DNA from: Saccoglossus kowalevskii
Taxonomy: Eukaryota > Hemichordata > Enteropneusta > Harrimaniidae
Assembly: GCF_000003605.2 (NCBI RefSeq)
Contig: NW_003142436.1
Span: forward strand, 1-35,652
Direction: 5' to 3'
DNA length: 35,652 nt
Shown: positions 2,906 to 33,585 of the stretch, piece by piece
Layout: each line of letters begins with the position of its first letter
Numbering within the stretch: position 1 is the stretch's first letter
The notes under the pieces: model-generated
Databases searched by the model: none
What the model was told of the DNA's origin: nothing
The model's input: the letters and a program-made list of their open reading frames with translations, nothing else
Made by a program: the position numbers and the translations under genes

Positions 2906-2967
2906 CTGGCTACACCAAGTACAGGCAATGATTAGAGCTAATACATGTATCATATATTTGTTGTGTT
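2906..2967. repeat. 62-bp unit with TA-CATG-TA insertion (event 1, copy 1)
   Basis: Six extra bases sit after the TA at unit positions 37-38, creating the perfect palindrome ATACATGTAT at 2941-2950. The bases read as a duplicated TA around CATG. The same change in the same sequence context is at 11898-11907 and 17672-17681. Confidence 0.9.
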
Positions 2968-3583
2968 CTGGCTACACCAAGTACAGACTAAGATTAGAGC
3001 TAATATCGTATATTTGTTGTGTTCTGGCTACACCAAGTACAGGCAATGATTAGAGCTAATATCGTATATTTGTTGTGTTCTGGCTACACCAAGTACAGGC
3101 AATGATTAGAGTTAATATCGTATATTTGTTGTGTTCTGGCTACACCAAGTACAGGCAATGATTAGAGCTAATATCATATATTTGTTGTGTTCTGGCTACA
3201 CCAAGTACAGACTAAGATTAGAGCTAATATCGTATATTTGTTGTGTTCTGGCTACACCAAGTACAGGCAAAGATTAGAGCTAATATCGTATATTTGTTGT
3301 GTTCTGGCTACACCAAGTACAGGCAATGATTAGAGCTAATATCGTATATTTGTTGTGTTCTGGCTACACCAAGTACAGGCAAAGATTAGAGCTAATATCG
3401 TATATTTGTTGTGTTCTGGCTACACCAAGTACAGGCAATGATTAGAGTTAATATCGTATATTTGTTGTGTTCTGGCTACACCAAGTACAGGCAATGATTA
3501 GAGCTAATATCGTATATTTGTTGTGTTCTGGCTACACCAAGTACAGGCAATGATTAGAGTTAATATCGTATATTTGTTGTGTT

Positions 3584-3630
3584 CTGGCTACACCAAGTAC
3601 AGGCAATGATTAGAGTTAATATCGTATATT
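3584..3630. repeat. 47-bp short unit, ATGG junction
   Basis: The same 9-bp deletion as at 2187-2233, but the next unit begins ATGGCTAC instead of CTGGCTAC. The following units keep the diagnostic C, C(TG), C, A(T33), A(TG) order, so this is probably the common short unit with a later C-to-A change. Confidence 0.88.
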
Positions 3631-4694
3631 ATGGCTACACCAAGTACAGGCAAAGATTAGAGCTAATATCGTATATTTGTTGTGTTCTGGCTACACCAAG
3701 TACAGGCAAAGATTAGAGCTAATATTGTATATTTGTTGTGTTCTGGCTACACCAAGTACAGGCAAAGATTAGAGCTAATATCGTATATTTGTTGTGTTCT
3801 GGCTACACCAAGTACAGGCAATGATTAGAGTTAATATCGTATATTTGTTGTGTTCTGGCTACACCAAGTACAGGCAATGATTAGAGCTAATATTGTATAT
3901 TTGTTGTGTTCTGGCTACACCAAGTACAGGCAATGATTAGAGCTAATATCGTATATTTGTTGTGTTCTGGCTACACCAAGTACAGGCAATGATTAGAGCT
4001 AATATCGTATATTTGTTGTGTTCTGGCTACACCAAGTACAGACTAAGATTAGAGCTAATATCGTATATTTGTTGTGTTCTGGCTACACCAAGTACAGGCA
4101 ATGATTAGAGTTAATATCGTATATTTGTTGTGTTCTGGCTACACTAAGTACAGGCAATGATTAGAGTTAATATCGTATATTTGTTGTGTTCTGGCTACAC
4201 CAAGTACAGGCAATGATTAGAGCTAATATCGTATATTTGTTGTGTTCTGGCTACACCAAGTACAGACTAAGATTAGAGTTAATATCGTATATTTGTTGTG
4301 TTCTGGCTACACCAAGTACAGGCAATGATTAGAGTTAATATCGTATATTTGTTGTGTTCTGGCTACACCAAGTACAGGCAATGATTAGAGTTAATATCGT
4401 ATATTTGTTGTGTTCTGGCTACACCAAGTACAGGCAATGATTAGAGCTAATATCGTATATTTGTTGTGTTCTGGCTACACCAAGTACAGGCAATGATTAG
4501 AGCTAATATCGTATATTTGTTGTGTTCTGGCTACACTAAGTACAGGCAATGATTAGAGTTAATATCGTATATTTGTTGTGTTCTGGCTACACCAAGTACA
4601 GACTAAGATTAGAGTTAATATCGTATATTTGTTGTGTTCTGGCTACACCAAGTACAGGCAATGATTAGAGTTAATATCGTATATTTGTTGTGTT

Positions 4695-4747
4695 CTGGCT
4701 ACACCAAGTACAGGCAATGATTAGAGTTACATGTAATATCGTATATT
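4695..4747. repeat. 53-bp unit: CATG insertion plus 9-bp deletion (event 2, copy 1)
   Basis: Six bases are added after the TA at unit positions 34-35, giving the palindrome TTACATGTAA at 4727-4736. The end of the unit lacks the same 9 bp as the other short units (+6 -9 = 53). The insertion point differs from event 1, so this is an independent event with the same inserted bases. Its twin is 7329-7381. Confidence 0.9.
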
Positions 4748-5811
4748 CTGGCTACACCAAGTACAGGCAAAGATTAGAGCTAATATCGTATATTTGTTGT
4801 GTTCTGGCTACACCAAGTACAGGCAAAGATTAGAGCTAATATTGTATATTTGTTGTGTTCTGGCTACACCAAGTACAGGCAAAGATTAGAGCTAATATCG
4901 TATATTTGTTGTGTTCTGGCTACACCAAGTACAGGCAATGATTAGAGTTAATATCGTATATTTGTTGTGTTCTGGCTACACCAAGTACAGGCAATGATTA
5001 GAGCTAATATTGTATATTTGTTGTGTTCTGGCTACACCAAGTACAGGCAATGATTAGAGTTAATATCGTATATTTGTTGTGTTCTGGCTACACCAAGTAC
5101 AGGCAATGATTAGAGTTAATATCGTATATTTGTTGTGTTCTGGCTACACCAAGTACAGGCAATGATTAGAGTTAATATCGTATATTTGTTGTGTTCTGGC
5201 TACACCAAGTACAGGCAATGATTAGAGTTAATATCGTATATTTGTTGTGTTCTGGCTACACCAAGTACAGGCAATGATTAGAGCTAATATCGTATATTTG
5301 TTGTGTTCTGGCTACACCAAGTACAGGCAAAGATTAGAATTAATATCGTATATTTGTTGTGTTCTGGCTACACCAAGTACAGGCAATGATTAGAGTTAAT
5401 ATCGTATATTTGTTGTGTTCTGGCTACACCAAGTACAGGCAATGATTAGAGTTAATATCGTATATTTGTTGTGTTCTGGCTACACCAAGTACAGGCAATG
5501 ATTAGAGCTAATATCGTATATTTGTTGTGTTCTGGCTACACCAAGTACAGACTAAGATTAGAGCTAATATTGTATATTTGTTGTGTTCTGGCTACACCAA
5601 GTACAGGCAATGATTAGAGCTAATATCGTATATTTGTTGTGTTCTGGCTACACCAAGTACAGGCAAAGATTAGAGTTAATATCGTATATTTGTTGTGTTC
5701 TGGCTACACCAAGTACAGGCAAAGATTAGAGTTAATATCGTATATTTGTTGTGTTCTGGCTACACTAAGTACAGGCAATGATTAGAGCTAATATCGTATA
5801 TTTGTTGTGTT
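4695..5811. repeat. Duplicated block 3, left copy
   Basis: After the 53-bp unit come nineteen units: C, C(TG), C, A(T33), A(TG), four A(T33), A, a C unit with A32 and T33 (AGAATTAAT, unit start 5308), A(T33) twice, A, B, A, C(T33) twice, and A with T11. The same order is at 7329-8334 with two units fewer: one of the four A(T33) and one of the two C(T33). The rare AGAATTAAT marker is 2578 bp from its twin at 7886, exactly one unit less than the 2634-bp offset of the short units. Confidence 0.85.
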
Positions 5812-6360
5812 CTGGCTACACTAAGTACAGACTAAGATTAGAGCTAATATCGTATATTTGTTGTGTTCTGGCTACACCAAGTACAGACTAAGATTAGAGC
5901 TAATATCGTATATTTGTTGTGTTCTGGCTACACCAAGTACAGGCAATGATTAGAGCTAATATCGTATATTTGTTGTGTTCTGGCTACACCAAGTACAGGC
6001 AAAGATTAGAGTTAATATCGTATATTTGTTGTGTTCTGGCTACACCAAGTACAGGCAATGATTAGAGCTAATATCGTATATTTGTTGTGTTCTGGCTACA
6101 CCAAGTACAGGCAATGATTAGAGCTAATATCGTATATTTGTTGTGTTCTGGCTACACCAAGTACAGGCAATGATTAGAGCTAATATCGTATATTTGTTGT
6201 GTTCTGGCTACACCAAGTACAGGCAAAGATTAGAGCTAATATCGTATATTTGTTGTGTTCTGGCTACACCAAGTACAGGCAATGATTAGAGCTAATATCG
6301 TATATTTGTTGTGTTCTGGCTACACCAAGTACAGGCAATGATTAGAGCTAATATCGTATA

Positions 6361-6600
6361 TTTTGTTGTGTTCTTGGCTACACCAAGTACAGGCAAAGAT
6401 TTAGAGTTTAATATCGTATATTTTGTTTGTGTTCTGGCTACACCATGTACAGACTAAGATTAGAGCTAATATCGTATATTTGTTGTGTTCTGGCTTACAC
6501 CAAGTACAGGCAAAGATTAGAGCTATATTCGATATTTGTTGTGTCTGGCTACACCAAGTACAGGCAATGATTAGAGCTAATATCATATATTTGTTGGGTT
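6361..6600. other. Indel-rich patch, net +5 bp
   Basis: Seven single T insertions occur in T runs or next to T (for example TTCTTGGC, GATTTAGAG, TTTGTTTGTG, GGCTTACAC), with two losses and a GCTATATTCGATATT scramble, within about five units. Neighbouring units show almost no such indels. The pattern looks like uncorrected read error, not satellite evolution. The unit starting at 6601 returns to normal phase. Confidence 0.75.
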
Positions 6601-7104
6601 CTGGCTACACCAAGTACAGACTAAGATTAGAGCTAATATCGTATATTTGTTGTGTTCTGGCTACACCAAGTACAGGCAATGATTAGAGCTAATATCGTAT
6701 ATTTGTTGTGTTCTGGCTACACCAAGTACAGGCAATGATTAGAGTTAATATCGTATATTTGTTGTGTTCTGGCTACACCAAGTACAGGCAATGATTAGAG
6801 CTAATATCATATATTTGTTGTGTTCTGGCTACACCAAGTACAGACTAAGATTAGAGCTAATATCGTATATTTGTTGTGTTCTGGCTACACCAAGTACAGG
6901 CAAAGATTAGAGCTAATATCGTATATTTGTTGTGTTCTGGCTACACCAAGTACAGGCAATGATTAGAGCTAATATCGTATATTTGTTGTGTTCTGGCTAC
7001 ACCAAGTACAGGCAAAGATTAGAGCTAATATCGTATATTTGTTGTGTTCTGGCTACACCAAGTACAGGCAATGATTAGAGTTAATATCGTATATTTGTTG
7101 TGTT
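6545..7104. repeat. Partial copy of block 2
   Basis: Units run A(CA at the CpG), B, A, A(T33), A(CA), B, C, A, C, A(T33). This matches the order that starts at 2906 and at 22962 but without the 6-bp insertion. It leads after a few more units into the 53-bp unit at 7329. Confidence 0.75.
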
Positions 7105-7328
7105 CTGGCTACACCAAGTACAGGCAATGATTAGAGTTAATATCGTATATTTGTTGTGTTCTGGCTACACCAAGTACAGACTAAGATTAGAGCTAATATC
7201 GTATATTTGTTGTGTTCTGGCTACACCAAGTACAGGCAAAGATTAGAGCTAATATCGTATATTTGTTGTGTTCTGGCTACACCAAGTACAGGCAATGATT
7301 AGAGTTAATATCGTATATTTGTTGTGTT

Positions 7329-7381
7329 CTGGCTACACCAAGTACAGGCAATGATTAGAGTTACATGTAATATCGTATATT
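7329..7381. repeat. 53-bp unit: CATG insertion plus 9-bp deletion (event 2, copy 2)
   Basis: Identical in structure to 4695-4747 and exactly 2634 bp downstream. The palindrome TTACATGTAA is at 7361-7370, and the unit ends GTATATT before the next CTGG. Confidence 0.9.
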
Positions 7382-8334
7382 CTGGCTACACCAAGTACAG
7401 GCAAAGATTAGAGCTAATATCGTATATTTGTTGTGTTCTGGCTACACCAAGTACAGGCAAAGATTAGAGCTAATATTGTATATTTGTTGTGTTCTGGCTA
7501 CACCAAGTACAGGCAAAGATTAGAGCTAATATCGTATATTTGTTGTGTTCTGGCTACACCAAGTACAGGCAATGATTAGAGTTAATATCGTATATTTGTT
7601 GTGTTCTGGCTACACCAAGTACAGGCAATGATTAGAGCTAATATTGTATATTTGTTGTGTTCTGGCTACACCAAGTACAGGCAATGATTAGAGTTAATAT
7701 CGTATATTTGTTGTGTTCTGGCTACACCAAGTACAGGCAATGATTAGAGTTAATATCGTATATTTGTTGTGTTCTGGCTACACCAAGTACAGGCAATGAT
7801 TAGAGTTAATATCGTATATTTGTTGTGTTCTGGCTACACCAAGTACAGGCAATGATTAGAGCTAATATCGTATATTTGTTGTGTTCTGGCTACACCAAGT
7901 ACAGGCAAAGATTAGAATTAATATCGTATATTTGTTGTGTTCTGGCTACACCAAGTACAGGCAATGATTAGAGTTAATATCGTATATTTGTTGTGTTCTG
8001 GCTACACCAAGTACAGGCAATGATTAGAGTTAATATCGTATATTTGTTGTGTTCTGGCTACACCAAGTACAGGCAATGATTAGAGCTAATATCGTATATT
8101 TGTTGTGTTCTGGCTACACCAAGTACAGACTAAGATTAGAGCTAATATCGTATATTTGTTGTGTTCTGGCTACACCAAGTACAGGCAATGATTAGAGCTA
8201 ATATCGTATATTTGTTGTGTTCTGGCTACACCAAGTACAGGCAAAGATTAGAGTTAATATCGTATATTTTGTTGTGTTCTGGCTACACTAAGTACAGGCA
8301 ATGATTAGAGCTAATATCGTATATTTGTTGTGTT
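7329..8334. repeat. Duplicated block 3, right copy
   Basis: This block begins with the 53-bp unit that carries both the CATG insertion (TTACATGTAA at 7361-7370) and the 9-bp deletion. It then repeats the unit order of 4748-5811 with two units missing. The AGAATTAAT marker unit starts at 7886. A single extra T is present near 8267-8270. Confidence 0.85.
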
Positions 8335-9006
8335 CTGGCTACACCAAGTACAGGCAATGATTAGAGCTAATATCGTATATTTGTTGTGTTCTGGCTACAC
8401 CAAGTACAGGCAATGATTAGAGCTAATATCGTATATTTGTTGTGTTCTGGCTACACCAAGTACAGGCTAAGATTAGAGCTAATATCGTATATTTGTTGTG
8501 TTCTGGCTACACCAAGTACAGACTAAGATTAGAGCTAATATCGTATATTTGTTGTGTTCTGGCTACACCAAGTACAGGCAATGATTAGAGCTAATATCGT
8601 ATATTTGTTGTGTTCTGGCTACACCAAGTACAGGCAATGATTAGAGCTAATATCGTATATTTGTTGTGTTCTGGCTACACCAAGTACAGACTAAGATTAG
8701 AGCTAATATCGTATATTTGTTGTGTTCTGGCTACACCAAGTACAGGCAATGATTAGAGCTAATATCGTATATTTGTTGTGTTCTGGCTACACCAAGTACA
8801 GGCAATGATTAGAGCTAATATCGTATATTTGTTGTGTTCTGGCTACACCAAGTACAGGCAATGATTAGAGCTAATATCGTATATTTGTTGTGTTCTGGCT
8901 ACACCAAGTACAGGCTAAGATTAGAGCTAATATCGTATATTTGTTGTGTTCTGGCTACACCAAGTACAGGCAATGATTAGAGCTAATATCGTATATTTGT
9001 TGTGTT
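8335..9006. repeat. Duplicated block 4, left copy (12 units)
   Basis: Order A, A, D, B, A, A, B, A, A, A, D, A. The same twelve-unit order is at 32419-33090 with no indel (offset 24,084 bp). The right copy has one private change, CCAACTACAG, in its first unit. Because these are common unit types, this match is weaker evidence than those carrying rare markers. Confidence 0.6.
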
Positions 9007-9454
9007 CTGGCTACACCAAGTACAGGCTAAGATTAGAGCTAATATCGTATATTTGTTGTGTTCTGGCTACACCAAGTACAGGCAAAGATTAGAGCTAATA
9101 TCGTATATTTGTTGTGTTCTGGCTACACCAAGTACAGGCAAAGATTAGAGCTAATATCGTATATTTGTTGTGTTCTGGCTACACCAAGTACAGACTAAGA
9201 TTAGAGCTAATATCGTATATTTGTTGTGTTCTGGCTACACCAAGTACAGGCAATGATTAGAGTTAATATCGTATATTTGTTGTGTTCTGTCTACACCAAG
9301 TACAGACAAAGATTAGAGCTAATATCGTATATTTGTTGTGTTCTGGCTACACCAAGTACAGGCAAAGATTAGAGCTAATATCGTATATTTGTTGTGTTCT
9401 GGCTACACCAAGTACAGGCAATGATTAGAGTTAATATTGTATATTTGTTGTGTT

Positions 9455-10126
9455 CTGGCTACACCAAGTACAGGCAATGATTAGAGTTAATATCGTATAT
9501 TTGTTGTGTTCTGGCTACACTAAGTACAGGCAAAGATTAGAGTTAATATCGTATATTTGTTGTGTTCTGGCTACACCAAGTACAGGCAATGATTAGAGTT
9601 AATATTGTATATTTGTTGTGTTCTGGCTACACCAAGTACAGGCAATGATTAGAGCTAATATCGTATATTTGTTGTGTTCTGGCTACACCAAGTACAGGCA
9701 ATGATTAGAGTTAATATCGTATATTTGTTGTGTTCTGGCTACACCAAGTACAGGCAAAGATTAGAGCTAATATCGTATATTTGTTGTGTTCTGGCTACAC
9801 CAAGTACAGGCAATGATTAGAGCTAATATCGTATATTTGTTGTGTTCTGGCTACACCAAGTACAGGCTAAGATTAGAGCTAATATCGTATATTTGTTGTG
9901 TTCTGGCTACACCAAGTACAGACTAAGATTAGAGCTAGTATCGTATATTTGTTGTGTTCTGGCTACACCAAGTACAGGCAATGATTAGAGCTAATATCGT
10001 ATATTTGTTGTGTTCTGGCTACACCAAGTACAGACAAAGATTAGAGTTAATATCGTATATTTGTTGTGTTCTGGCTACACCAAGTACAGGCAATGATTAG
10101 AGCTAATATCGTATATTTGTTGTGTT
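9455..10126. repeat. Duplicated block 5, copy 1 (12 units)
   Basis: Order A(T33), C with T11 and T33, A(T33, TG), A, A(T33), C, A, D, B with the rare GCTAGTATC (9934-9940), A, E(T33) and A. The same order with the same GCTAGTATC marker and rare E unit is at 17923-18594, offset 8468 bp (151 units plus two 6-bp insertions in between). A partial third copy is at 33586-34090. Confidence 0.85.
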
Positions 10127-11806
10127 CTGGCTACACCAAGTACAGACTAAGATTAGAGCTAATATCGTATATTTGTTGTGTTCTGGCTACACCAAGTACA
10201 GGCAATGATTAGAGCTAATATCGTATATTTGTTGTGTTCTGGCTACACCAAGTACAGGCAATGATTAGAGCTAATATCGTATATTTGTTGTGTTCTGGCT
10301 ACACCAAGTACAGGCAAAGATTAGAGCTAATATCGTATATTTGTTGTGTTCTGGCTACACCAAGTACAGGCAAAGATTAGAGCTAATATCGTATATTTGT
10401 TGTGTTCTGGCTACACCAAGTACAGGCAATGATTAGAGTTAATATCGTATATTTGTTGTGTTCTGGCTACACCAAGTACAGGCAATGATTAGAGCTAATA
10501 TCGTATATTTGTTGTGTTCTGGCTACACCAAGTACAGGCAATGATTAGAGTTAATATCGTATATTTGTTGTGTTCTGGCTACATCAAGTACAGGCAATGA
10601 TTAGAGTTAATATCGTATATTTGTTGTGTTTTGGCTACACCAAGTACAGGCAATGATTAGAGCTAATATCGTATATTTGTTGTGTTCTGGCTACACCAAG
10701 TACAGGCAATGATTAGAGCTAATATCGTATATTTGTTGTGTTCTGGCTACACCAAGTACAGGCAAAGATTAGAGCTAATATTGTATATTTGTTGTGTTCT
10801 GGCTACACCAAGTACAGGCAAAGATTAGAGCTAATATCGTATATTTGTTGTGTTCTGGCTACACCAAGTACAGGCAATGATTAGAGTTAATATCGTATAT
10901 TTGTTGTGTTCTGGCTACACCAAGTACAGGCAATGATTAGAGCTAATATTGTATATTTGTTGTGTTCTGGCTACACCAAGTACAGGCAATGATTAGAGCT
11001 AATATCGTATATTTGTTGTGTTCTGGCTACACCAAGTACAGGCAATGATTAGAGCTAATATCGTATATTTGTTGTGTTCTGGCTACACCAAGTACAGACT
11101 AAGATTAGAGCTAATATCGTATATTTGTTGTGTTCTGGCTACACCAAGTACAGGCAATGATTAGAGTTAATATCGTATATTTGTTGTGTTCTGGCTACAC
11201 TAAGTACAGGCAAAGATTAGAGCTAATATTGTATATTTGTTGTGTTCTGGCTACACCAAGTACAGGCAATGATTAGAGCTAATATCGTATATTTGTTGTG
11301 TTCTGGCTACACCAAGTACAGACTAAGATTAGAGTTAATATCGTATATTTGTTGTGTTCTGGCTACACCAAGTACAGGCAATGATTAGAGCTAATATCGT
11401 ATATTTGTTGTGTTCTGGCTACACTAAGTATAGGCAATGATTAGAGCTAATATCGTATATTTGTTGTGTTCTGGCTACACCAAGTACAGACTAAGATTAG
11501 AGTTAATATCGTATATTTGTTGTGTTCTGGCTACACTAAGTACAGGCAAAGATTAGAGCTAATATCGTATATTTGTTGTGTTCTGGCTACACCAAGTACA
11601 GGCAAAGATTAGAGCTAATATCGTATATTTGTTGTGTTCTGGCTACACCAAGTACAGACTAAGATTAGAGCTAATATCGTATATTTGTTGTGTTCTGGCT
11701 ACACCAAGTACAGGCAATGATTAGAGCTAATATCGTATATTTGTTGTGTTCTGGCTACACCAAGTACAGGCTAAGATTAGAGCTAATATCGTATATTTGT
11801 TGTGTT
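10127..11806. repeat. Ordinary satellite units, no assigned block
   Basis: About thirty units of types A, B, C and one D with mixed C33/T33. Private point changes seen here include ACATCAAG near 10583, TTTTGGCTAC near 10628 and AGTATAGGC near 11428. I did not place this stretch in a longer duplicated block by eye. It contains no foreign sequence. Confidence 0.8.
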
Positions 11807-12372
11807 CTGGCTACACTAAGTACAGACTAAGATTAGAGTTAATATCGTATATTTGTTGTGTTCTGGCTACACCAAGTACAGGCAATGATTAGAGCTAATA
11901 CATGTATCATATATTTGTTGTGTTCTGGCTACACCAAGTACAGACTAAGATTAGAGCTAATATCGTATATTTGTTGTGTTCTGGCTACACCAAGTACAGG
12001 CAATGATTAGAGCTAATATCGTATATTTGTTGTGTTCTGGCTACACCAAGTACAGGCAATGATTAGAGTTAATATCGTATATTTGTTGTGTTCTGGCTAC
12101 ACCAAGTACAGGCAATGATTAGAGCTAATATCATATATTTGTTGTGTTCTGGCTACACCAAGTACAGACTAAGATTAGAGCTAATATCGTATATTTGTTG
12201 TGTTCTGGCTACACCAAGTACAGGCAAAGATTAGAGCTAATATCGTATATTTGTTGTGTTCTGGCTACACCAAGTACAGGCAATGATTAGAGCTAATATC
12301 GTATATTTGTTGTGTTCTGGCTACACCAAGTACAGGCAAAGATTAGAGCTAATATCGTATATTTGTTGTGTT
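11807..12372. repeat. Partial copy of block 2 with the event 1 insertion
   Basis: Ten units match 2850-3415 in order and in length (566 bp each). They include the T11/T33 type B start and the 62-bp unit at 11863-11924. The match stops where this copy enters the 280-bp tandem duplication. Confidence 0.85.
11863..11924. repeat. 62-bp unit with TA-CATG-TA insertion (event 1, copy 2)
   Basis: The palindrome ATACATGTAT is at 11898-11907, in the same place in the unit as at 2941-2950, and is again followed by the CA form of the CpG. Confidence 0.9.
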
Positions 12373-12652
12373 CTGGCTACACCAAGTACAGGCAATGATT
12401 AGAGCTAATATCATATATTTGTTGTGTTCTGGCTACACCAAGTACAGACTAAGATTAGAGCTAATATCGTATATTTGTTGTGTTCTGGCTACACCAAGTA
12501 CAGGCAAAGATTAGAGCTAATATCGTATATTTGTTGTGTTCTGGCTACACCAAGTACAGGCAATGATTAGAGCTAATATCGTATATTTGTTGTGTTCTGG
12601 CTACACCAAGTACAGGCAAAGATTAGAGCTAATATCGTATATTTGTTGTGTT
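12093..12652. repeat. 280-bp tandem duplication of five units
   Basis: The five-unit order A(CA at the CpG), B, C, A, C at 12093-12372 is repeated at once at 12373-12652. Other copies of this region (3136-3415, 23186-23465, 34990-35269) have it only once. So this is a local duplication after the block was copied, or a loss in the others. Confidence 0.8.
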
Positions 12653-13548
12653 CTGGCTACACCAAGTACAGGCAAAGATTAGAGCTAATATCGTATATTT
12701 GTTGTGTTCTGGCTACACCAAGTACAGGCAATGATTAGAGCTAATATCGTATATTTGTTGTGTTCTGGCTACACCAAGTACAGGCAAAGATTAGAGTTAA
12801 TATCGTATATTTGTTGTGTTCTGGCTACACCAAGTACGGACTAAGATTAGAGCTAATATCGTATATTTGTTGTGTTCTGGCTACACCAAGTACAGGCAAA
12901 GATTAGAGCTAATATCATATATTTGTTGTGTTCTGGCTACACCAAGTACAGGCAATGATTAGAGCTAATATCGTATATTTGTTGTGTTCTGGCTACACCA
13001 AGTACAGACTATGATTAGAGCTAATATTGTATATTTGTTGTGTTCTGGCTACACCAAGTACAGGCAATGATTAGAGCTAATATCGTATATTTGTTGTGTT
13101 CTGGCTACACCAAGTACAGACTAAGATTAGAGCTAATATTGTATATTTGTTGTGTTCTGGCTACACCAAGTACAGGCAATGATTAGAGCTAATATCGTAT
13201 ATTTGTTGTGTTCTGGCTACACCAAGTACAGGCAAAGATTAGAGCTAATATCGTATATTTGTTGTGTTCTGGCTACACCAAGTACAGGCAATGATTAGAG
13301 TTAATATCGTATATTTGTTGTGTTCTGGCTACACCAAGTACAGGCAATGATTAGAGCTAATATCGTATATTTGTTGTGTTCTGGCTACACCAAGTACAGG
13401 CAAAGATTAGAGCTAATATCGTATATTTGTTGTGTTCTGGCTACACCAAGTACAGACTAAGATTAGAGCTAATATTGTATATTTGTTGTGTTCTGTCTAC
13501 ACCAAGTACAGGCAATGATTAGAGCTAATATCGTATATTTGTTGTGTT
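12653..13548. repeat. Duplicated block 6, copy 1 (16 units)
   Basis: Order C, A, C(T33), a B-like unit with TACGGAC (12835-12841), C(CA), A, F(TG), A, B(TG), A, C, A(T33), A, C, B(TG) and an A unit with CTGTCTAC (13493). The same order with all three rare markers (TACGGAC, type F, CTGTCTAC) is at 18819-19714, offset 6166 bp, which is 110 units plus one 6-bp insertion. The left seven units occur a third time at 16181-16572. Confidence 0.87.
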
Positions 13549-16068: not shown

Positions 16069-16180
16069 CTGGCTACACCAAGTACAGGCAAAGATTAGAG
16101 TTAATATCGTATATTTGTTGTGTTCTGGCTACACCAAGTACAGACTAAGATTAGAGCTAATATCGTATATTTGTTGTGTT

Positions 16181-17866: not shown

Positions 17867-17922
17867 CTGGCTACACCAAGTACAGGCAATGATTAGAGCT
17901 AATATCGTATATTTGTTGTGTT

Positions 17923-18594: not shown

Positions 18595-18818
18595 CTGGCT
18601 ACACCAAGTACAGGCAAAGATTAGAGCTAATATCGTATATTTGTTGTGTTCTGGCTACACCAAGTACAGGCAATGATTAGAGCTAATATCGTATATTTGT
18701 TGTGTTCTGGCTACACCAAGTACAGGCAAAGATTAGAGTTAATATCGTATATTTGTTGTGTTCTGGCTACACCAAGTACAGACTAAGATTAGAGCTAATA
18801 TCGTATATTTGTTGTGTT

Positions 18819-19714
18819 CTGGCTACACCAAGTACAGGCAAAGATTAGAGCTAATATCGTATATTTGTTGTGTTCTGGCTACACCAAGTACAGGCAATGA
18901 TTAGAGCTAATATCGTATATTTGTTGTGTTCTGGCTACACCAAGTACAGGCAAAGATTAGAGTTAATATCGTATATTTGTTGTGTTCTGGCTACACCAAG
19001 TACGGACTAAGATTAGAGCTAATATCGTATATTTGTTGTGTTCTGGCTACACCAAGTACAGGCAAAGATTAGAGCTAATATCATATATTTGTTGTGTTCT
19101 GGCTACACCAAGTACAGGCAATGATTAGAGCTAATATCGTATATTTGTTGTGTTCTGGCTACACCAAGTACAGACTATGATTAGAGCTAATATTGTATAT
19201 TTGTTGTGTTCTGGCTACACCAAGTACAGGCAATGATTAGAGCTAATATCGTATATTTGTTGTGTTCTGGCTACACCAAGTACAGACTAAGATTAGAGCT
19301 AATATTGTATATTTGTTGTGTTCTGGCTACACCAAGTACAGGCAATGATTAGAGCTAATATCGTATATTTGTTGTGTTCTGGCTACACCAAGTACAGGCA
19401 AAGATTAGAGCTAATATCGTATATTTGTTGTGTTCTGGCTACACCAAGTACAGGCAATGATTAGAGTTAATATCGTATATTTGTTGTGTTCTGGCTACAC
19501 CAAGTACAGGCAATGATTAGAGCTAATATCGTATATTTGTTGTGTTCTGGCTACACCAAGTACAGGCAAAGATTAGAGCTAATATCGTATATTTGTTGTG
19601 TTCTGGCTACACCAAGTACAGACTAAGATTAGAGCTAATATTGTATATTTGTTGTGTTCTGTCTACACCAAGTACAGGCAATGATTAGAGCTAATATCGT
19701 ATATTTGTTGTGTT
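18819..19714. repeat. Duplicated block 6, copy 2
   Basis: Matches 12653-13548 over sixteen units at a constant 6166-bp offset. The TACGGAC marker is at 19001, type F unit at 19155 and CTGTCTAC unit at 19659. Confidence 0.87.
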
Positions 19715-21505
19715 CTGGCTACACCAAGTACAGGCAATGATTAGAGCTAATATCGTATATTTGTTGTGTTCTGGCTACACCAAGTACAGGCAATGATTAG
19801 AGCTAATATCGTATATTTGTTGTGTTCTGGCTACACCAAGTACAGGCAAAGATTAGAGCTAATATCGTATATTTGTTGTGTTCTGGCTACACCAAGTACA
19901 GACTAAGATTAGAGCTAATATCGTATATTTGTTGTGTTCTGGCTACACCAAGTACAGGCAAAGATTAGAGCTAATATCGTATATTTGTTGTGTTCTGGCT
20001 ACACCAAGTACAGGCAATGATTAGAGCTAATATCGTATATTTGTTGTGTTCTGGCTACACCAAGTACAGGCAATGATTAGAGCTAATATCGTATATTTGT
20101 TGTGTTCTGGCTACACCAAGTACAGGCAAAGATTAGAGTTAATATCGTATATTTGTTGTGTTCTGGCTACACCATGTACAGACTAAGATTAGAGCTAATA
20201 TCGTATATTTGTTGTGTTCTGGCTACACCAAGTACAGGCAAAGATTAGAGCTAATATCGTATATTTGTTGTGTTCTGGCTACACCAAGTACAGGCAATGA
20301 TTAGAGCTAATATCGTATATTTGTTGTGTTCTGGCTACACCAAGTACAGACTAAGATTAGAGCTAATATTGTATATTTGTTGTGTTCTGGCTACACCAAG
20401 TACAGGCAATGATTAGAGCTAATATCGTATATTTGTTGTGTTCTGGCTACACCAAGTACAGACTAAGATTAGAGCTAATATTGTATATTTGTTGTGTTCT
20501 GGCTACACCAAGTACAGGCAAAGATTAGAGCTAATATCGTATATTTGTTGTGTTCTGGCTACACCAAGTACAGGCAATGATTAGAGTTAATATCGTATAT
20601 TTGTTGTGTTCTGGCTACACCAAGTACAGGCAATGATTAGAGCTAATATCGTATATTTGTTGTGTTCTGGCTACACCAAGTACAGGCAATGATTAGAGCT
20701 AATATCGTATATTTGTTGTGTTCTGGCTACACCAAGTACAGACTAAGATTAGAGCTAATATCGTATATTTGTTGTGTTCTGGCTACACCAAGTACAGACT
20801 AAGATTAGAGCTAATATCGTATATTGTTGTGTTCTGGCTACACCAAGTACAGGCAAAGATTAGAGTTAATATCGTATATTTGTTGTGTTCTGGCTACACC
20901 AAGTACAGACTAAGATTAGAGCTAATATCGTATATTTGTTGTGTTCTGGCTACACCAAGTACAGGCAAAGATTAGAGCTAATATCGTATATTTGTTGTGT
21001 TCTGGCTACACCAAGTACAGGCAATGATTAGAGCTAATATCGTATATTTGTTGTGTTCTGGCTACACCAAGTACAGGCAAAGATTAGAGTTAATATCGTA
21101 TATTTGTTGTGTTCTGGCTACACCAAGTACGGACTAAGATTAGAGCTAATATCGTATATTTGTTGTGTTCTGGCTACACCAAGTACAGACTAAGATTAGA
21201 GCTAATATTGTATATTTGTTGTGTTCTGTCTACACCAAGTACAGGCAATGATTAGAGCTAATATCGTATATTTGTTGTGTTCTGGCTACACCAAGTACAG
21301 GCAATGATTAGAGCTAATATCGTATATTTGTTGTGTTCTGGCTACACCAAGTACAGGCAATGATTAGAGCTAATATCGTATATTTGTTGTGTTCTGGCTA
21401 CACCAAGTACAGGCAAAGATTAGAGCTAATATCGTATATTTGTTGTGTTCTGGCTACACCAAGTACAGACTAAGATTAGAGCTAATATCGTATATTTGTT
21501 GTGTT
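19715..21505. repeat. Ordinary satellite units
   Basis: Thirty-two units, mainly A, B and C with C33. Singular changes are CACCATGTAC near 20174, one T missing near 20825 (ATATTGTTG), and a TACGGAC unit near 21128 followed here by B(TG) and CTGTCTAC (about 21228). That order differs from block 6, so this looks like a recombinant of its markers. Confidence 0.75.
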
Positions 21506-22121
21506 CTGGCTACACCAAGTACAGGCAATGATTAGAGCTAATATCGTATATTTGTTGTGTTCTGGCTACACCAAGTACAGACTAAGATTAGAGCTAATAT
21601 CGTATATTTGTTGTGTTCTGGCTACACCAAGTACAGGCAATGATTAGAGTTAATATCGTATATTTGTTGTGTTCTGGCTACACTAAGTACAGGCAATGAA
21701 TAGAGTTAATATCGTATATTTGTTGTGTTCTGGCTACACCAAGTACAGGCAATGATTAGAGCTAATATCGTATATTTGTTGTGTTCTGGCTACACCAAGT
21801 ACAGACTAAGATTAGAGTTAATATCGTATATTTTTTGTGTTCTGGCTACACCAAGTACAGGCAATGATTAGAGTTAATATCGTATATTTGTTGTGTTCTG
21901 GCTACACCAAGTACAGGCAATGATTAGAGTTAATATCGTATATTTGTTGTGTTCTGGCTACACCAAGTACAGGCAATGATTAGAGCTAATATCGTATATT
22001 TGTTGTGTTCTGGCTACACCAAGTACAGGCAATGATTAGAGCTAATATCGTATATTTGTTGTGTTCTGGCTACACTAAGTACAGGCAATGATTAGAGTTA
22101 ATATCGTATATTTGTTGTGTT
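21506..22121. repeat. Duplicated block 8, copy 1 (11 units)
   Basis: Order A, B, A(T33), A(T11, T33) with AATGAATAG (about 21695), A, B(T33) with ATTTTTTGTG (about 21829), A(T33) twice, A, A, A(T11, T33). It matches 31411-32026 at a constant 9905-bp offset, including both private point variants. The copy at 27541-28156 has the same order but neither variant. Confidence 0.87.
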
Positions 22122-22905
22122 CTGGCTACACCAAGTACAGACTAAGATTAGAGTTAATATCGTATATTTGTTGTGTTCTGGCTACACCAAGTACAGGCAA
22201 TGATTAGAGCTAATATCGTATATTTGTTGTGTTCTGGCTACACCAAGTACAGGCAATGATTAGAGTTAATATCGTATATTTGTTGTGTTCTGGCTACACC
22301 AAGTACAGGCAATGATTAGAGTTAATATCGTATATTTGTTGTGTTCTGGCTACACCAAGTACAGGCAATGATTAGAGCTAATATCGTATATTTGTTGTGT
22401 TCTGGCTACACCAAGTACAGGCAAAGATTAGAGCTAATATCGTATATTTGTTGTGTACTGGCTACACCAAGTACAGACTAAGATTAGAGCTAATATTGTA
22501 TATTTGTTGTGTTCTGGCTACACTAAGTACAGGCAAAGATTAGAGCTAATATCGTATATTTGTTGTGTTCTGGCTACACCAAGTACAGACTAAGATTAGA
22601 GCTAATATTGTATATTTGTTGTGTTCTGGCTACACTAAGTACAGGCAAAGATTAGAGCTAATATCGTATATTTGTTGTGTTCTGGCTACACCAAGTACAG
22701 GCAAAGATTAGAGCTAATATCGTATATTTGTTGTGTTCTGGCTACACCAAGTACAGACTAAGATTAGAGCTAATATCGTATATTTGTTGTGTTCTGGCTA
22801 CACCAAGTACAGGCAATGATTAGAGCTAATATCGTATATTTGTTGTGTTCTGGCTACACCAAGTACAGGCTAAGATTAGAGCTAATATCGTATATTTGTT
22901 GTGTT

Positions 22906-24184
22906 CTGGCTACACTAAGTACAGACTAAGATTAGAGTTAATATCGTATATTTGTTGTGTTCTGGCTACACCAAGTACAGGCAATGATTAGAGCTAATAT
23001 CATATATTTGTTGTGTTCTGGCTACACCAAGTACAGACTAAGATTAGAGCTAATATCGTATATTTGTTGTGTTCTGGCTACACCAAGTACAGGCAATGAT
23101 TAGAGCTAATATCGTATATTTGTTGTGTTCTGGCTACACCAAGTACAGGCAATGATTAGAGTTAATATCGTATATTTGTTGTGTTCTGGCTACACCAAGT
23201 ACAGGCAATGATTAGAGCTAATATCATATATTTGTTGTGTTCTGGCTACACCAAGTACAGACTAAGATTAGAGCTAATATCGTATATTTGTTGTGTTCTG
23301 GCTACACCAAGTACAGGCAAAGATTAGAGCTAATATCGTATATTTGTTGTGTTCTGGCTACACCAAGTACAGGCAATGATTAGAGCTAATATCGTATATT
23401 TGTTGTGTTCTGGCTACACCAAGTACAGGCAAAGATTAGAGCTAATATCGTATATTTGTTGTGTTCTGGCTACACCAAGTACAGGCAATGATTAGAGTTA
23501 ATATCGTATATTTGTTGTGTTCTGGCTACACCAAGTACAGGCAATGATTAGAGCTAATATCGTATATTTGTTGTGTTCTGGCTACACCAAGTACAGGCAA
23601 TGATTAGAGTTAATATCGTATATTTGTTGTGTTCTGGCTACACCAAGTACAGGCAATGATTAGAGTTAATATCGTATATTCTGGCTACACCAAGTACAGG
23701 CAAAGATTAGAGCTAATATCGTATATTTGTTGTGTTCTGGCTACACCAAGTACAGGCAAAGATTAGAGCTAATATTGTATATTTGTTGTGTTCTGGCTAC
23801 ACCAAGTACAGGCAAAGATTAGAGCTAATATCGTATATTTGTTGTGTTCTGGCTACACCAAGTACAGGCAATGATTAGAGTTAATATCGTATATTTGTTG
23901 TGTTCTGGCTACACCAAGTACAGGCAATGATTAGAGCTAATATTGTATATTTGTTGTGTTCTGGCTACACCAAGTACAGGCAATGATTAGAGCTAATATC
24001 GTATATTTGTTGTGTTCTGGCTACACCAAGTACAGGCAATGATTAGAGCTAATATCGTATATTTGTTGTGTTCTGGCTACACCAAGTACAGACTAAGATT
24101 AGAGCTAATATCGTATATTTGTTGTGTTCTGGCTACACCAAGTACAGGCAATGATTAGAGTTAATATCGTATATTTGTTGTGTT
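22906..24184. repeat. Long-range duplicated block 2, copy 2 (23 units)
   Basis: Same order as 2850-4134, but without the CATG insertion and with CTGG instead of ATGG after the short unit at 23634-23680. The insertion is present in three copies of this region and absent in the others. Confidence 0.85.
23634..23680. repeat. 47-bp short unit (9-bp deletion)
   Basis: GTATATT joins CTGG at 23680/23681. It is followed by the same C, C(TG), C, A(T33), A(TG) order as the other short units. Confidence 0.9.
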
Positions 24185-24257
24185 CTGGCTACACTAAGTA
24201 CAGGCAAAGATTAGAGCTAATATTGTATATTTGTTGTGTTCTGGCTACACCAAGTAC

Positions 24258-24345
24258 AGGCCAATGATTAGGAGCTAATATCGTATATTTGTTGTGTTCT
24301 GGCTACACCAAGTACAGACTAAGATTAGAGCTAATATGTATATTG
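24258..24345. other. Indel-rich patch, net 0 bp
   Basis: Two insertions (AGGCCAATG, TTAGGAGC) are followed within one unit by two losses (AATATGTAT without the C, and ATATTGTTG without a T). The clustering and the compensating net length suggest read error, not real change. Confidence 0.65.
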
Positions 24346-26190
24346 TTGTGTTCTGGCTACACCAAGTACAGGCAATGATTAGAGCTAATATCGTATATTT
24401 GTTGTGTTCTGGCTACACCAAGTACAGACTAAGATTAGAGCTAATATTGTATATTTGTTGTGTTCTGGCTACACCAAGTACAGGCAATGATTAGAGCTAA
24501 TATCGTATATTTGTTGTGTTCTGGCTACACCAAGTACAGGCAAAGATTAGAGCTAATATCGTATATTTGTTGTGTTCTGGCTACACCAAGTACAGACTAA
24601 GATTAGAGCTAATATTGTATATTTGTTGTGTTCTGGCTACACCAAGTACAGGCAATGATTAGAGTTAATATCGTATATTTGTTGTGTTCTGGCTACACCA
24701 AGTACAGGCAAAGATTAGAGCTAATATCGTATATTTGTTGTGTTCTGGCTACACCAAGTACAGGCAATGATTAGAGCTAATATCGTATATTTGTTGTGTT
24801 CTGGCTACACCAAGTACAGGCAATGATTAGAGCTAATATCGTATATTTGTTGTGTTCTGGCTACACCAAGTACAGACTAAGATTAGAGCTAATATCGTAT
24901 ATTTGTTGTGTTCTGGCTACACCAAGTACAGGCAATGATTAGAGTTAATATCGTATATTTGTTGTGTTCTGGCTACACCAAGTACAGGCAATGATTAGAG
25001 CTAATATCGTATATTTGTTGTGTTCTGGCTACACTAAGTACAGGCAATGATTAGAGCTAATATCGTATATTTGTTGTGTTCTGGCTACACCAAGTACAGG
25101 CAATGATTAGAGCTAATATCGTATATTTGTTGTGTTCTGGCTACACCAAGTACAGGCAATGATTAGAGCTAATATCGTATATTTGTTGTGTTCTGGCTAC
25201 ACTAAGTACAGGCAATGATTAGAGTTAATATCGTATATTTGTTGTGTTCTGGCTACACCAAGTACAGGCAATGATTAGAGTTAATATCGTATATTTGTTG
25301 TGTTCTGGCTACACCAAGTACAGGCAATGATTAGAGCTAATATCGTATATTTGTTGTGTTCTGGCTACACCAAGTACAGACTAAGATTAGAGCTAATATC
25401 GTATATTTGTTGTGTTCTGGCTACACCAAGTACAGGCAATGATTAGAGTTAATATCGTATATTTGTTGTGTTCTGGCTACACCAAGTACAGGCAAAGATT
25501 AGAGTTAATATCGTATATTTGTTGTGTTCTGGCTACACCAAGTACAGGCAAAGATTAGAGCTAATATCGTATATTTGTTGTGTTCTGGCTACACCAAGTA
25601 CAGGCAAAGATTAGAGCTAATATCGTATATTTGTTGTGTTCTGGCTACACCAAGTACAGGCAAAGATTAGAGTTAATATCGTATATTTGTTGTGTTCTGG
25701 CTACACCAAGTACAGGCAATGATTAGAGCTAATATTGTATATTTGTTGTGTTCTGGCTACACCAAGTACAGGCAATGATTAGAGTTAATATCGTATATTT
25801 GTTGTGTTCTGGCTACACCAAGTACAGGCAATGATTAGAGTTAATATCGTATATTTGTTGTGTTCTGGCTACACCAAGTACAGACTAAGATTAGAGCTAA
25901 TATCGTATATTTGTTGTGTTCTGGCTACACCAAGTACAGGCAATGATTAGAGCTAATATCGTATATTTGTTGTGTTCTGGCTACACCAAGTACAGGCAAT
26001 GATTAGAGCTAATATTGTATATTTGGCTACACCAAGTACAGACTAAGATTAGAGCTAATATTGTATATTTGTTGTGTTCTGGCTACACCAAGTACAGGCA
26101 ATGATTAGAGTTAATATCGTATATTTGTTGTGTTCTGGCTACACCAAGTACAGGCAAAGATTAGAGCTAATATCGTATATTTGTTGTGTT
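24346..26190. repeat. Ordinary satellite units with one 46-bp unit
   Basis: About thirty-three units of types A, B and C. The region near 25420-25860 is T33-rich. The only length variant is the 46-bp unit at 25977-26022. No foreign sequence is present. Confidence 0.8.
25977..26022. repeat. 46-bp short unit (10-bp deletion)
   Basis: GTATATT joins TGGCTAC, so 10 bp of the T/G-rich tail and the first C are missing. The deletion differs by one base from the 47-bp units, and the flanking order (A with TG, then B with TG) is also different, so it looks independent of them. Confidence 0.85.
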
Positions 26191-27254
26191 CTGGCTACAC
26201 CAAGTACAGGCAATGATTAGAGCTAATATCGTAAATTTGTTGTGTTCTGGCTACACCAAGTACAGGCAATGATTAGAGCTAATATCGTATATTTGTTGTG
26301 TTCTGGCTACACCAAGTACAGACTAAGATTAGAGCTAATATCGTATATTTGTTGTGTTCTGGCTACACCAAGTACAGGCAATGATTAGAGTTAATATCGT
26401 ATATTTGTTGTGTTCTGGCTACACCAAGTACAGGCAATGATTAGAGCTAATATCGTATATTTGTTGTGTTCTGGCTACACTAAGTACAGGCAATGATTAG
26501 AGCTAATATCGTATATTTGTTGTGTTCTGGCTACACCAAGTACAGGCAATGATTAGAGCTAATATCGTATATTTGTTGTGTTCTGGCTACACCAAGTACA
26601 GGCAATGATTAGAGCTAATATCGTATATTTGTTGTGTTCTGGCTACACCAAGTACAGGCAATGATTAGAGTTAATATCGTATATTTGTTGTGTTCTGGCT
26701 ACACCAAGTACAGACTAAGATTAGAGCTAATATCATATATTTGTTGTGTTCTGGCTACACCAAGTACAGGCAATGATTAGAGCTAATATCGTATATTTGT
26801 TGTGTTCTGGCTACACCAAGTACAGGCAAAGATTAGAGCTAATATCGTATATTTGTTGTGTTCTGGCTACACCAAGTACAGGCAATGATTAGAGCTAATA
26901 TCGTATATTTGTTGTGTTCTGGCTACACCAAGTACAGGCAATGATTAGAGCTAATATCGTATATTTGTTGTGTTCTGGCTACACCAAGTACAGGCTAAGA
27001 TTAGAGCTAATATCGTATATTTGTTGTGTTCTGGCTACACCAAGTACAGACTAAGATTAGAGCTAATATCGTATATTTGTTGTGTTCTGGCTACACCAAG
27101 TACAGGCAATGATTAGAGCTAATATCGTATATTTGTTGTGTTCTGGCTACACCAAGTACAGGCAATGATTAGAGCTAATATCGTATATTTGTTGTGTTCT
27201 GGCTACACCAAGTACAGGCTAAGATTAGAGCTAATATCGTATATTTGTTGTGTT
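26191..27254. repeat. Long-range duplicated block 1, right copy
   Basis: Nineteen units matching 283-1290 apart from one extra T11 unit at 26471 and a few point changes. The shared GTAAATTT marker is at 26231. The copies are 25.9 kb apart, among the widest matches in the window. Confidence 0.75.
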
Positions 27255-27366
27255 CTGGCTACACTAAGTACAGGCAATGATTAGAGCTAATATCGTATAT
27301 TTGTTGTGTTCTGTCTACACCAAGTACAGACTAAGATTAGAGTTAATATCGTATATTTGTTGTGTT

Positions 27367-27428
27367 CTGGCTACACCAAGTACCGGTACAGACTAAGATT
27401 AGAGTTAATATCGTATATTTGTTGTGTT
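27367..27428. repeat. 62-bp unit with TA-CCGG-TA insertion (event 3, copy 1)
   Basis: Six bases are added after the TA at unit positions 15-16, making the palindrome GTACCGGTAC at 27380-27389. The unit is type B with T33, whereas its partner at 31237 is type A. Confidence 0.9.
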
Positions 27429-28156
27429 CTGGCTACACCAAGTACAGGCAATGATTAGAGCTAATATCGTATATTTGTTGTGTTCTGGCTACACCAAGTA
27501 CAGGCAATGATTAGAGCTAATATCGTATATTTGTTGTGTTCTGGCTACACCAAGTACAGGCAATGATTAGAGCTAATATCGTATATTTGTTGTGTTCTGG
27601 CTACACCAAGTACAGACTAAGATTAGAGCTAATATCGTATATTTGTTGTGTTCTGGCTACACCAAGTACAGGCAATGATTAGAGTTAATATCGTATATTT
27701 GTTGTGTTCTGGCTACACTAAGTACAGGCAATGATTAGAGTTAATATCGTATATTTGTTGTGTTCTGGCTACACCAAGTACAGGCAATGATTAGAGCTAA
27801 TATCGTATATTTGTTGTGTTCTGGCTACACCAAGTACAGACTAAGATTAGAGTTAATATCGTATATTTGTTGTGTTCTGGCTACACCAAGTACAGGCAAT
27901 GATTAGAGTTAATATCGTATATTTGTTGTGTTCTGGCTACACCAAGTACAGGCAATGATTAGAGTTAATATCGTATATTTGTTGTGTTCTGGCTACACCA
28001 AGTACAGGCAATGATTAGAGCTAATATCGTATATTTGTTGTGTTCTGGCTACACCAAGTACAGGCAATGATTAGAGCTAATATCGTATATTTGTTGTGTT
28101 CTGGCTACACTAAGTACAGGCAATGATTAGAGTTAATATCGTATATTTGTTGTGTT
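27367..28156. repeat. Duplicated block 8, copy 2, with TA-CCGG-TA insertion
   Basis: The first unit carries the insertion. Then come A, A, A, B, A(T33), A(T11, T33), A, B(T33), A(T33) twice, A, A, A(T11, T33). It is 790 bp long, the same as 31237-32026, at a constant 3870-bp offset. It lacks the AATGAATAG and ATTTTTTGTG variants found in the 21.5-kb and 31.4-kb copies. Confidence 0.85.
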
Positions 28157-29612
28157 CTGGCTACACCAAGTACAGGCAATGATTAGAGTTAATATCGTAT
28201 ATTTGTTGTGTTCTGGCTACACCAAGTACAGGCAATGATTAGAGCTAATATCGTATATTTGTTGTGTTCTGGCTACACCAAGTACAGACTAAGATTAGAG
28301 CTAATATCGTATATTTGTTGTGTTCTGGCTACACCAAGTACAGGCAATGATTAGAGTTAATATCGTATATTTGTTGTGTTCTGGCTACACCAAGTACAGG
28401 CAATGATTAGAGTTAATATCGTATATTTGTTGTGTTCTGGCTACACCAAGTACAGGCAATGATTAGAGCTAATATCGTATATTTGTTGTGTTCTGGCTAC
28501 ACCAAGTACAGGCAATGATTAGAGCTAATATCGTATATTTGTTGTGTTCTGGCTACACCAAGTACAGGCAAAGATTAGAGTTAATATCGTATATTTGTTG
28601 TGTTCTGGCTACACCAAGTACAGGCAAAGATTAGAGTTAATATCGTATATTTGTTGTGTTCTGGCTACACCAAGTACAGGCAAAGATTAGAGCTAATATC
28701 GTATATTTGTTGTGTTCTGGCTACACCAAGTACAGGCAATGATTAGAGCTAATATCATATATTTGTTGTGTTCTGGCTACACCAAGTACAGACTAAGATT
28801 AGAGCTAATATCGTATATTTGTTGTGTTCTGGCTACACCAAGTACAGGCAAAGATTAGAGCTAATATCGTATATTTGTTGTGTTCTGGCTACACCAAGTA
28901 CAGGCAATGATTAGAGCTAATATCGTATATTTGTTGTGTTCTGGCTACACCAAGTACAGGCAAAGATTAGAGCTAATATCGTATATTTGTTGTGTTCTGG
29001 CTACACCAAGTACAGGCAATGATTAGAGCTAATATCGTATATTTGTTGTGTTCTGGCTACACCAAGTACAGGCAATGATTAGAGCTAATATCGTATATTT
29101 GTTGTGTTCTGGCTACACCAAGTACAGGCAATGATTAGAGCTAATATCGTATATTTGTTGTGTTCTGGCTACACCAAGTACAGGCAATGATTAGAGCTAA
29201 TATCGTATATTTGTTGTGTTCTGGCTACACCAAGTACAGACTAAGATTAGAGCTAATATCGTATATTTGTTGTGTTCTGGCTACACCAAGTACAGGCAAT
29301 GATTAGAGTTAATATCGTATATTTGTTGTGTTCTGGCTACACTAAGTACAGGCAATGATTAGAGTTAATATCGTATATTTGTTGTGTTCTGGCTACACCA
29401 AGTACAGGCAATGATTAGAGCTAATATCGTATATTTGTTGTGTTCTGGCTACACCAAGTACAGGCAAAGATTAGAGCTAATATCGTATATTTGTTGTGTT
29501 CTGGCTACACCAAGTACAGACTAAGATTAGAGCTAATATTGTATATTTGTTGTGTTCTGTCTACACCAAGTACAGGCAATGATTAGAGCTAATATCGTAT
29601 ATTTGTTGTGTT
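28157..29612. repeat. Ordinary satellite units
   Basis: Twenty-six units. The left part is rich in T33; the part after about 28690 is mostly C33. A CTGTCTAC unit lies near 29557. No foreign sequence and no length variant were seen. Confidence 0.8.
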
Positions 29613-30340
29613 CTGGCTACACCAAGTACAGGCAATGATTAGAGCTAATATCGTATATTTGTTGTGTTCTGGCTACACCAAGTACAGGCAATGATTAGAG
29701 CTAATATCGTATATTTGTTGTGTTCTGGCTACACCAAGTACAGGCAAAGATTAGAGCTAATATCGTATATTTGTTGTGTTCTGGCTACACCAAGTACAGA
29801 CTAAGATTAGAGCTAATATTGTATATTTGTTGTGTTCTGTCTACACCAAGTACAGGCAATGATTAGAGCTAATATCGTATATTTGTTGTGTTCTGTCTAC
29901 ACCAAGTACAGGCAATGATTAGAGTTAATATCGTATATTTGTTGTGTTCTGGCTACACCAAGTACAGGCAATGATTAGAGTTAATATCATATATTTGTTG
30001 TGTTCTGGCTACACCAAGTACAGACTAAGATTAGAGCTAATATCGTATATTTGTTGTGTTCTGGCTACACCAAGTACAGACTAAGATTAGAGCTAATATC
30101 GTATATTTGTTGTGTTCTGGCTACACCAAGTACAGGCAAAGATTAGAGCTAATATCGTATATTTGTTGTGTTCTGGCTACACCAAGTACAGGCAATGATT
30201 AGAGTTAATATCGTATATTTGTTGTGTTCTGGCTACACCAAGTACAGACTAAGATTAGAGCTAATATCGTATATTTGTTGTGTTCTGGCTACACCAAGTA
30301 CAGACTAAGATTAGAGCTAATATCGTATATTTGTTGTGTT
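29613..30340. repeat. Duplicated block 7, right copy
   Basis: Matches 15341-16068 over thirteen units. The paired CTGTCTAC units start at 29837 and 29893, followed by A(T33) with the CA form of the CpG at 29949. Confidence 0.87.
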
Positions 30341-31236
30341 CTGGCTACACCAAGTACAGACTAAGATTAGAGCTAATATCGTATATTTGTTGTGTTCTGG
30401 CTACACCAAGTACAGGCAATGATTAGAGCTAATATCGTATATTTGTTGTGTTCTGGCTACACCAAGTACAGGCAATGATTAGAGCTAATATTGTATATTT
30501 GTTGTGTTCTGGCTACACCAAGTACAGGCAATGATTAGAGCTAATATCATATATTTGTTGTGTTCTGGCTACACCAAGTACAGACTAAGATTAGAGCTAA
30601 TATTGTATATTTGTTGTGTTCTGGCTACACCAAGTACAGGCAATGATTAGAGCTAATATCGTATATTTGTTGTGTTCTGGCTACACCAAGTACAGGCAAA
30701 GATTAGAGCTAATATCGTATATTTGTTGTGTTCTGGCTACACCAAGTACGGTCAATGATTAGAGCTAATATCGTATATTTGTTGTGTTCTGGCTACACCA
30801 AGTACAGGCAAAGATTAGAGCTAATATCGTATATTTGTTGTGTTCTGGCTACACCAAGTACAGGCAATGATTAGAGTTAATATCGTATATTTGTTGTGTT
30901 CTGGCTACACCAAGTACAGGCAATGATTAGAGTTAATATCGTATATTTGTTGTGTTCTGGCTACACCAAGTACAGACTAAGATTAGAGCTAATATCGTAT
31001 ATTTGTTGTGTTCTGGCTACACCATGTACAGGCAAAGATTAGAGCTAATATCGTATATTTGTTGTGTTCTGGCTACACCAAGTACAGACTAAGATTAGAG
31101 CTAATATCGTATATTTGTTGTGTTCTGGCTACACCAAGTACAGACTAAGATTAGAGCTAATATCGTATATTTGTTGTGTTCTGGCTACACCAAGTACAGA
31201 CTAAGATTAGAGTTAATATCGTATATTTGTTGTGTT
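30341..31236. repeat. Ordinary satellite units
   Basis: Sixteen units, B-rich at both ends. Private changes are TACGGTCAATG near 30748 and CACCATGTAC near 31023. Nothing but satellite is present. Confidence 0.8.
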
Positions 31237-31298
31237 CTGGCTACACCAAGTACCGGTACAGGCAATGATTAGAGTTAATATCGTATATTTGTTGTGTT
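31237..31298. repeat. 62-bp unit with TA-CCGG-TA insertion (event 3, copy 2)
   Basis: The palindrome GTACCGGTAC is at 31250-31259, 3870 bp (69 units plus 6) after the first copy. Confidence 0.9.
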
Positions 31299-33538: not shown

Positions 33539-33585
33539 CTGGCTACACCAAGTACAGGCAATGATTAGAGTTAATATCGTATATT
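33539..33585. repeat. 47-bp short unit, ATGG junction, different right flank
   Basis: The same deletion and ATGG junction as at 3584-3630. The next units, however, are A, A(T33), C, A, D and so on (block 5) instead of the usual C, C(TG), C. The short unit therefore sits at a breakpoint between two block families. Confidence 0.85.

Follow-up and report, generated by a model that had tools for sequence, protein, structure and literature searches.

The window analysed here is the complete contig C3336 of the Saccoglossus kowalevskii assembly (35,652 bp; the assembly comprises 572 Mb in 4,830 contigs), and a single 56-bp satellite fills it from end to end (positions 1..35652, forward strand; Tandem Repeats Finder (TRF) period 56, 637.1 copies). 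We divided the array into 637 units, which represent 72 types; 610 of the 637 are exactly 56 bp long and at most five bases off the consensus. Seven units bear exactly six additional bases, which fall into three classes, and these insertions are the subject of this study; we consider them to be excision scars of elements of the Tc1/mariner superfamily, later amplified with the satellite, with a probability of about 0.82.

Five of the seven scarred units are 62 bp in length, while the remaining two are 53 bp since they combine the 6-bp insertion with a separate 9-bp deletion. Other length variants are steps of 1–2 bp, with the exception of 9-bp and 10-bp deletions, and all changes of more than 2 bp besides the seven scars are deletions (9 bp in types 15 and 25, 10 bp in type 53). 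No further insertion of more than 2 bp was present among the 637 units of the window, and thus no 6-bp insertion of any other form, many of which would, according to the preliminary description of this sequence, have spoken against excision. The 9-bp deletion lies between two TT dinucleotides and gives a 47-bp unit (type 15), found five times (2187-2233, 3584-3630, 23634-23680, 33539-33585 and 35326-35372), and is also carried by both 53-bp scarred units.

With up to 3 mismatches allowed, a degenerate 30-base unit probe had 636 genome matches, and a separate scan placed 630 of these inside the window, so the assembled satellite is practically confined to this contig; a genome-wide check of the satellite, as the preliminary description had proposed, therefore has little else to test. 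The 19-base satellite word CTGGCTACACCAAGTACAG was found at 1 and 7 loci in prokaryote and virus collections, respectively, with one match each and no array, and gave no match in a plasmid collection.

Three classes of insertion and their empty sites

In the first class, the TA at positions 37-38 of the unit is replaced by TACATGTA in three copies, all of type 18 (2942..2949, 11899..11906 and 17673..17680; neither scars nor empty sites are assigned a strand). The second class has the same change at TA 34-35 in two copies of type 25, the units with the 9-bp deletion (4728..4735 and 7362..7369), and in the third class TA 15-16 has become TACCGGTA in one unit of type 57 (27381..27388) and one of type 60 (31251..31258). 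These are the only occurrences of the two words in the window. The insertion site is a TA, and TA flanks the extra bases on both sides, in 7/7 units, so that all three classes consist of TA, a 4-bp palindrome and TA, and the CATG core appears at two TA sites, each in its own unit lineage. Both the unit split and the word positions confirm the seven units and three classes of the preliminary description, our coordinates being its 10-bp palindromes less one base on each side. The scar sites are themselves palindromic (ATAT, TTAA and GTAC); a preference for such sites was considered and set aside as weak, since 45% of the TAs in the window are palindromic NTAN and three of three would occur by chance at 0.09.

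When random 6-mers were inserted at random positions in the consensus unit, 6334 of 2,000,000 trials gave the TA-palindrome-TA form (p=0.0032), and three independent events by chance come to about 3e-8, although the form was defined only once it had been seen. This figure speaks against an origin by slippage in replication or by tandem duplication with later point mutation, in which case the palindrome would be coincidental. Slippage could draw on the insert at position 37, which together with its next bases (CATGTAT) resembles the following seven bases (CATATAT, in type 18), and on an unrelated satellite array (L020) with 5-bp insertions that resemble duplications. At position 37, however, it would have to copy 7 bp, drop one base and change another, and no such near-copy was seen by eye beside the inserts at positions 34 and 15, which makes slippage a very improbable source of the three classes.

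The sequence of the inserts also bears on templated insertion during end joining (of the polymerase-theta type), in which a break at TA is repaired with bases from a nearby unit. CATGTA or its complement occurs in three unscarred units, making such copying possible for the CATG classes, and inserts of this sort are described in excerpts of a study of Tc1 breaks in C. elegans (PMC4490562). Of 6160 combinations with a 6-mer copied from the unit, 24 yield the TA-palindrome-TA form (0.0039), a rate close to that for a random 6-mer. The CCGG class has no template in the array, however, as CCGG, ACCGG, CCGGT, ACCGGT, TACCGG and CCGGTA are absent from both strands of the 629 unscarred units tested (one 60-bp unit being outside this count). 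Templated repair also predicts inserts of varied sequence and length rather than three of one form, and no flanking base was lost, since removal of the six bases restores a known unit type each time. We therefore regard it as improbable.

The unit types restored by deleting the six bases are type 7 (11 copies) for position 37, type 15 (5 copies) for position 34, and types 11 (8 copies) and 1 (87 copies) for the CCGG class. The higher-order structure of the array allows a closer comparison, with one neighbourhood recurring both scarred and unscarred. The unit context 14-[18]-3-0 occurs three times with the scar, versus three times as the empty 14-[7]-3-0, at 22998..22999 and 34802..34803 (both extending to 14-[7]-3-0-1, the first in the same context as the position-37 scars) and at 16889..16890. 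Similarly, the context 1-[25]-2-12-2-1-8 occurs twice scarred versus twice as 1-[15]-2-12-2-1-8, the empty 47-bp unit having its TA at 2220..2221 and at 23667..23668. Relative to the empty site at 22998, the scars at 2942, 11899 and 17673 have exact flanks of 126 bp left and 681 bp right, 390 and 498 bp, and 126 and 226 bp, respectively, whereas those at 4728 and 7362 match the empty site at 2220 over 114 and 380 bp, and 123 and 380 bp. In the CATG classes the difference is thus purely 6 bp within exact identity of up to 390+498, 126+681 and 114+380 bp. The comparison is weaker for the CCGG class, with best empty matches of 39 bp left and 173 bp right, or 48 and 128 bp, for the scar at 27381, and 104 and 72 bp for that at 31251. 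As 630 of the 637 units are without a scar, we regard the scarred form as derived.

The copies of each CATG class share long exact flanks (124+506, 348+234, 124+234 and 112+500 bp), and each class is therefore most simply explained by one event followed by duplication. Both position-34 scar units share the 9-bp deletion, so this scar most simply arose on a unit already carrying it. The two CCGG copies are identical over 66+11 bp only, extending to 106+354 bp at up to 3 mismatches per side, with no third place in the genome matching the scarred 23-mer of 27381 at up to 2 mismatches, and they probably represent one event plus conversion. The three independent events of the preliminary description remain the simplest count in total, although for the CCGG class a single event is likely rather than proven.

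The recurrence of the scars in separate contexts (3, 2 and 2 times) and the long exact flanks of the CATG copies also argue against an artefact of assembly or polishing. The array does contain clusters of 1–2 bp insertions and deletions, at 6316-6600, 24241-24352, 33922-34149 and in the last 170 bp near the contig end, which resemble assembly or read error and would favour such an origin, but for the scars themselves we hold it to be extremely improbable.

Candidate source elements

Elements with matching ends were sought among genome matches to two transposase families, with 16 loci fetched from at least 27 matches to Pfam DDE_3, and four loci read from at least 150 matches to Pfam Transposase_1 (mariner); element ends were resolved in some of these loci. 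Two Tc1-like elements, L038:1193-3442 (G000 contig C346) and L043:1132-2897 (contig C898), have terminal repeats directly inside the flanking TA, which is followed by CAGACCCG or CAGACCCGCCAGAAAGTATTTAC (family form CAGACCCGCC). The 28-bp arms (TACAGACCCGCCAGAAAGTATTTACGCA) are 96% identical, the ends of each copy differing from one another at a single position. Genome-wide, 40 such ends were found at up to 3 mismatches, of which 17 are exact and 38 begin with TACA, while the reversed-pattern control gave 0. Six convergent end pairs lie 1.7–3.0 kb apart, and five of these enclose a DDE_3 match (one of the five below the family cut-off). The open reading frame (ORF) of L043 matches both Pfam DDE_3 and the Sleeping Beauty transposase 5cr4_A (E 1.1e-23).

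The CA...TG family anticipated in the preliminary description is thus present in the genome, and a source with such ends exists. Since many of its ends are identical, the data suggest that this Tc1-like family was recently active. The bases of the CATG scars equal the ends of this TA-inserting family, two bases per end being weak evidence of origin, and an origin of the CATG scars from this particular CAGACC family is in our judgement possible but somewhat doubtful. In both ORFs 42 residues separate the second D from the E in the catalytic triad, versus 34 in Sleeping Beauty; a limited full-text literature search for DD42E turned up no paper.

A CC...GG family, likewise predicted, was not found among the DDE_3 and Transposase_1 loci read, nor among the TA-flanked inverted repeats of the stretches fetched before the four mariner loci. 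Two of these four mariners (L051 and L052) have both ends visible, starting with CGAG after the TA, while the other two (L053 and L054) are 80–84% like them with incomplete ends. The CGAGGG-ended mariner resembles a possible source of the scars in its TA-flanked ends and mariner transposase (Transposase_1), but its ends begin with CG, so that a scar of two bases from each end would be TACGCGTA, unlike TACCGGTA. A group of three DDE_3 loci (L041, L046 and L048) has CTACTCAAAACAATTT repeats with uncertain boundaries, no reading of which begins with CC, and the remaining DDE_3 loci among the 16 gave no resolved TA-flanked ends.

Excision and spread as a probable explanation

We infer that elements were once present at the scar sites, and likewise their families and the route of repair, as follows. 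A member of the Tc1/mariner superfamily, or a related non-autonomous element, would have inserted at a TA in one unit and duplicated it, and would later have been excised by staggered cuts two bases inside the 5′ ends of the element. End joining of the break, with both two-base tails kept and filled, would leave TA-CATG-TA from an element with CA...TG ends, or TA-CCGG-TA from one with CC...GG ends, and unequal exchange or conversion may then have copied the scarred unit and its neighbours to 3, 2 and 2 places. A two-base cut with both tails kept and filled gives TA-4 bp-TA and so fits all three classes, whereas none of the three rivals (templated repair, slippage and artefact) accounts well for every class. 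The Tc1/mariner excision put forward in the preliminary description is still the best explanation, strengthened by the empty sites and the CA...TG family, but three of its points carry less weight than it gave them, namely the CC...GG family, the described Tc1 footprint and the genome-wide check of the satellite.

Several observations count against excision. The window shows no element body, the end of the CA family is absent from the contig at up to 3 mismatches, and the CCGG class is without a CC...GG family among the loci and inverted repeats covered above. The CATG classes have potential templates in the three unscarred units, and TACATGTA is common throughout the genome (54,306 sites versus 29,953 for the reversed word). 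Finally, 6-bp insertions of whatever form were absent from the parts examined of eight other satellite arrays (about 1,560 units), in a check that covered indels of at least 3 bp, omitted up to about 10 units per array end and excluded L022 and smaller arrays; 5-bp and 3-bp insertions were present.

The genome-wide abundance of TACATGTA was rejected as evidence for scars, as the excess over the reversed word is at least partly due to other repeats such as a 75-bp tandem repeat. In 20 sampled stretches, TA-CATG-TA occurred 9 times versus 26.0 expected from order-3 composition, and TA-CCGG-TA 3 times versus 0.3 expected, but this comparison was given no weight since about 55 of the 200 kb is N and eight stretches are satellite almost throughout. 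These eight stretches consist nearly entirely of unrelated short satellites, and L019 does so in part (L019-L023, L028-L030 and L032), with periods of 18, 33, 35, 44, 47, 50, 57, 59 and 66 bp. A short inverted-repeat element with ends near GTAAAATCTGTATTAGAAGCC lies inside the 75-bp tandem repeat (L014:885-1080), and is likely a further mobile element in a tandem array. Another stretch contains a long near-perfect inverted repeat (L018:1616-3554), with arms of more than 200 bp about 1.5 kb apart.

Many excision scars are identified with no copy of the original site for comparison. In this array the uncut version survives, with hundreds of identical flanking bases, and the two differ by exactly 6 bp. 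If the insertions are indeed excision scars, they also show that TA-inserting elements both enter and leave a satellite array and that their scars spread like any unit variant, which could help to order the events of array evolution. It is a further and rather unlikely step that the satellite acts as a tape recorder of transposition, array amplification holding scars and empty sites in phase, from which dead or lost TA-inserting families can be read by their terminal dinucleotides, with CCGG marking an unseen CC...GG family and CATG a Tc1-like group with the unusual 42-residue D-to-E spacing.

Comparison with known systems

Footprints of Tc1 keep the TA twice, with terminal bases of the element in between. 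Sleeping Beauty, the transposase of which is matched by the CA-ended family of this genome, cuts three bases inside the element, which departs from the two-base cut proposed here and adds to the points against it. The match of TACATGTA to a described Tc1 footprint, as claimed in the preliminary description, was not confirmed, since a limited literature search found no printed instance of this sequence as a Tc1 footprint. The sections seen of one report give +4 as the typical somatic scar of Tc1 (78%; PMC13148408), whereas all three classes here are +6 and the element is unseen at the sites; keeping both tails three times of three would thus not be the majority outcome for somatic Tc1. According to excerpts of a further source, Tc1/mariner footprints are 2–4 bp, and ZB leaves 0–3 bp where the scars described here retain four (PMC7913693). 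The same excerpts describe a preference of ZB for a palindromic AT target, and the three scar sites are palindromic as well, a weak likeness given the 0.09 above. The cutting geometry, for which alone we liken the scars to the bacterial Tc1/mariner/IS630 element ISY100, has a precedent in its cleavage two nucleotides inside the 5′ ends, as given in the part consulted of PMC2170065, and Tc1 breaks in C. elegans carry non-complementary 2-nt 3′ overhangs in the excerpts of PMC4490562, like the two-base tails proposed here. The observation itself is well supported, and the insertions in this satellite are marks of a familiar type in an unusual setting, with the empty versions alongside.

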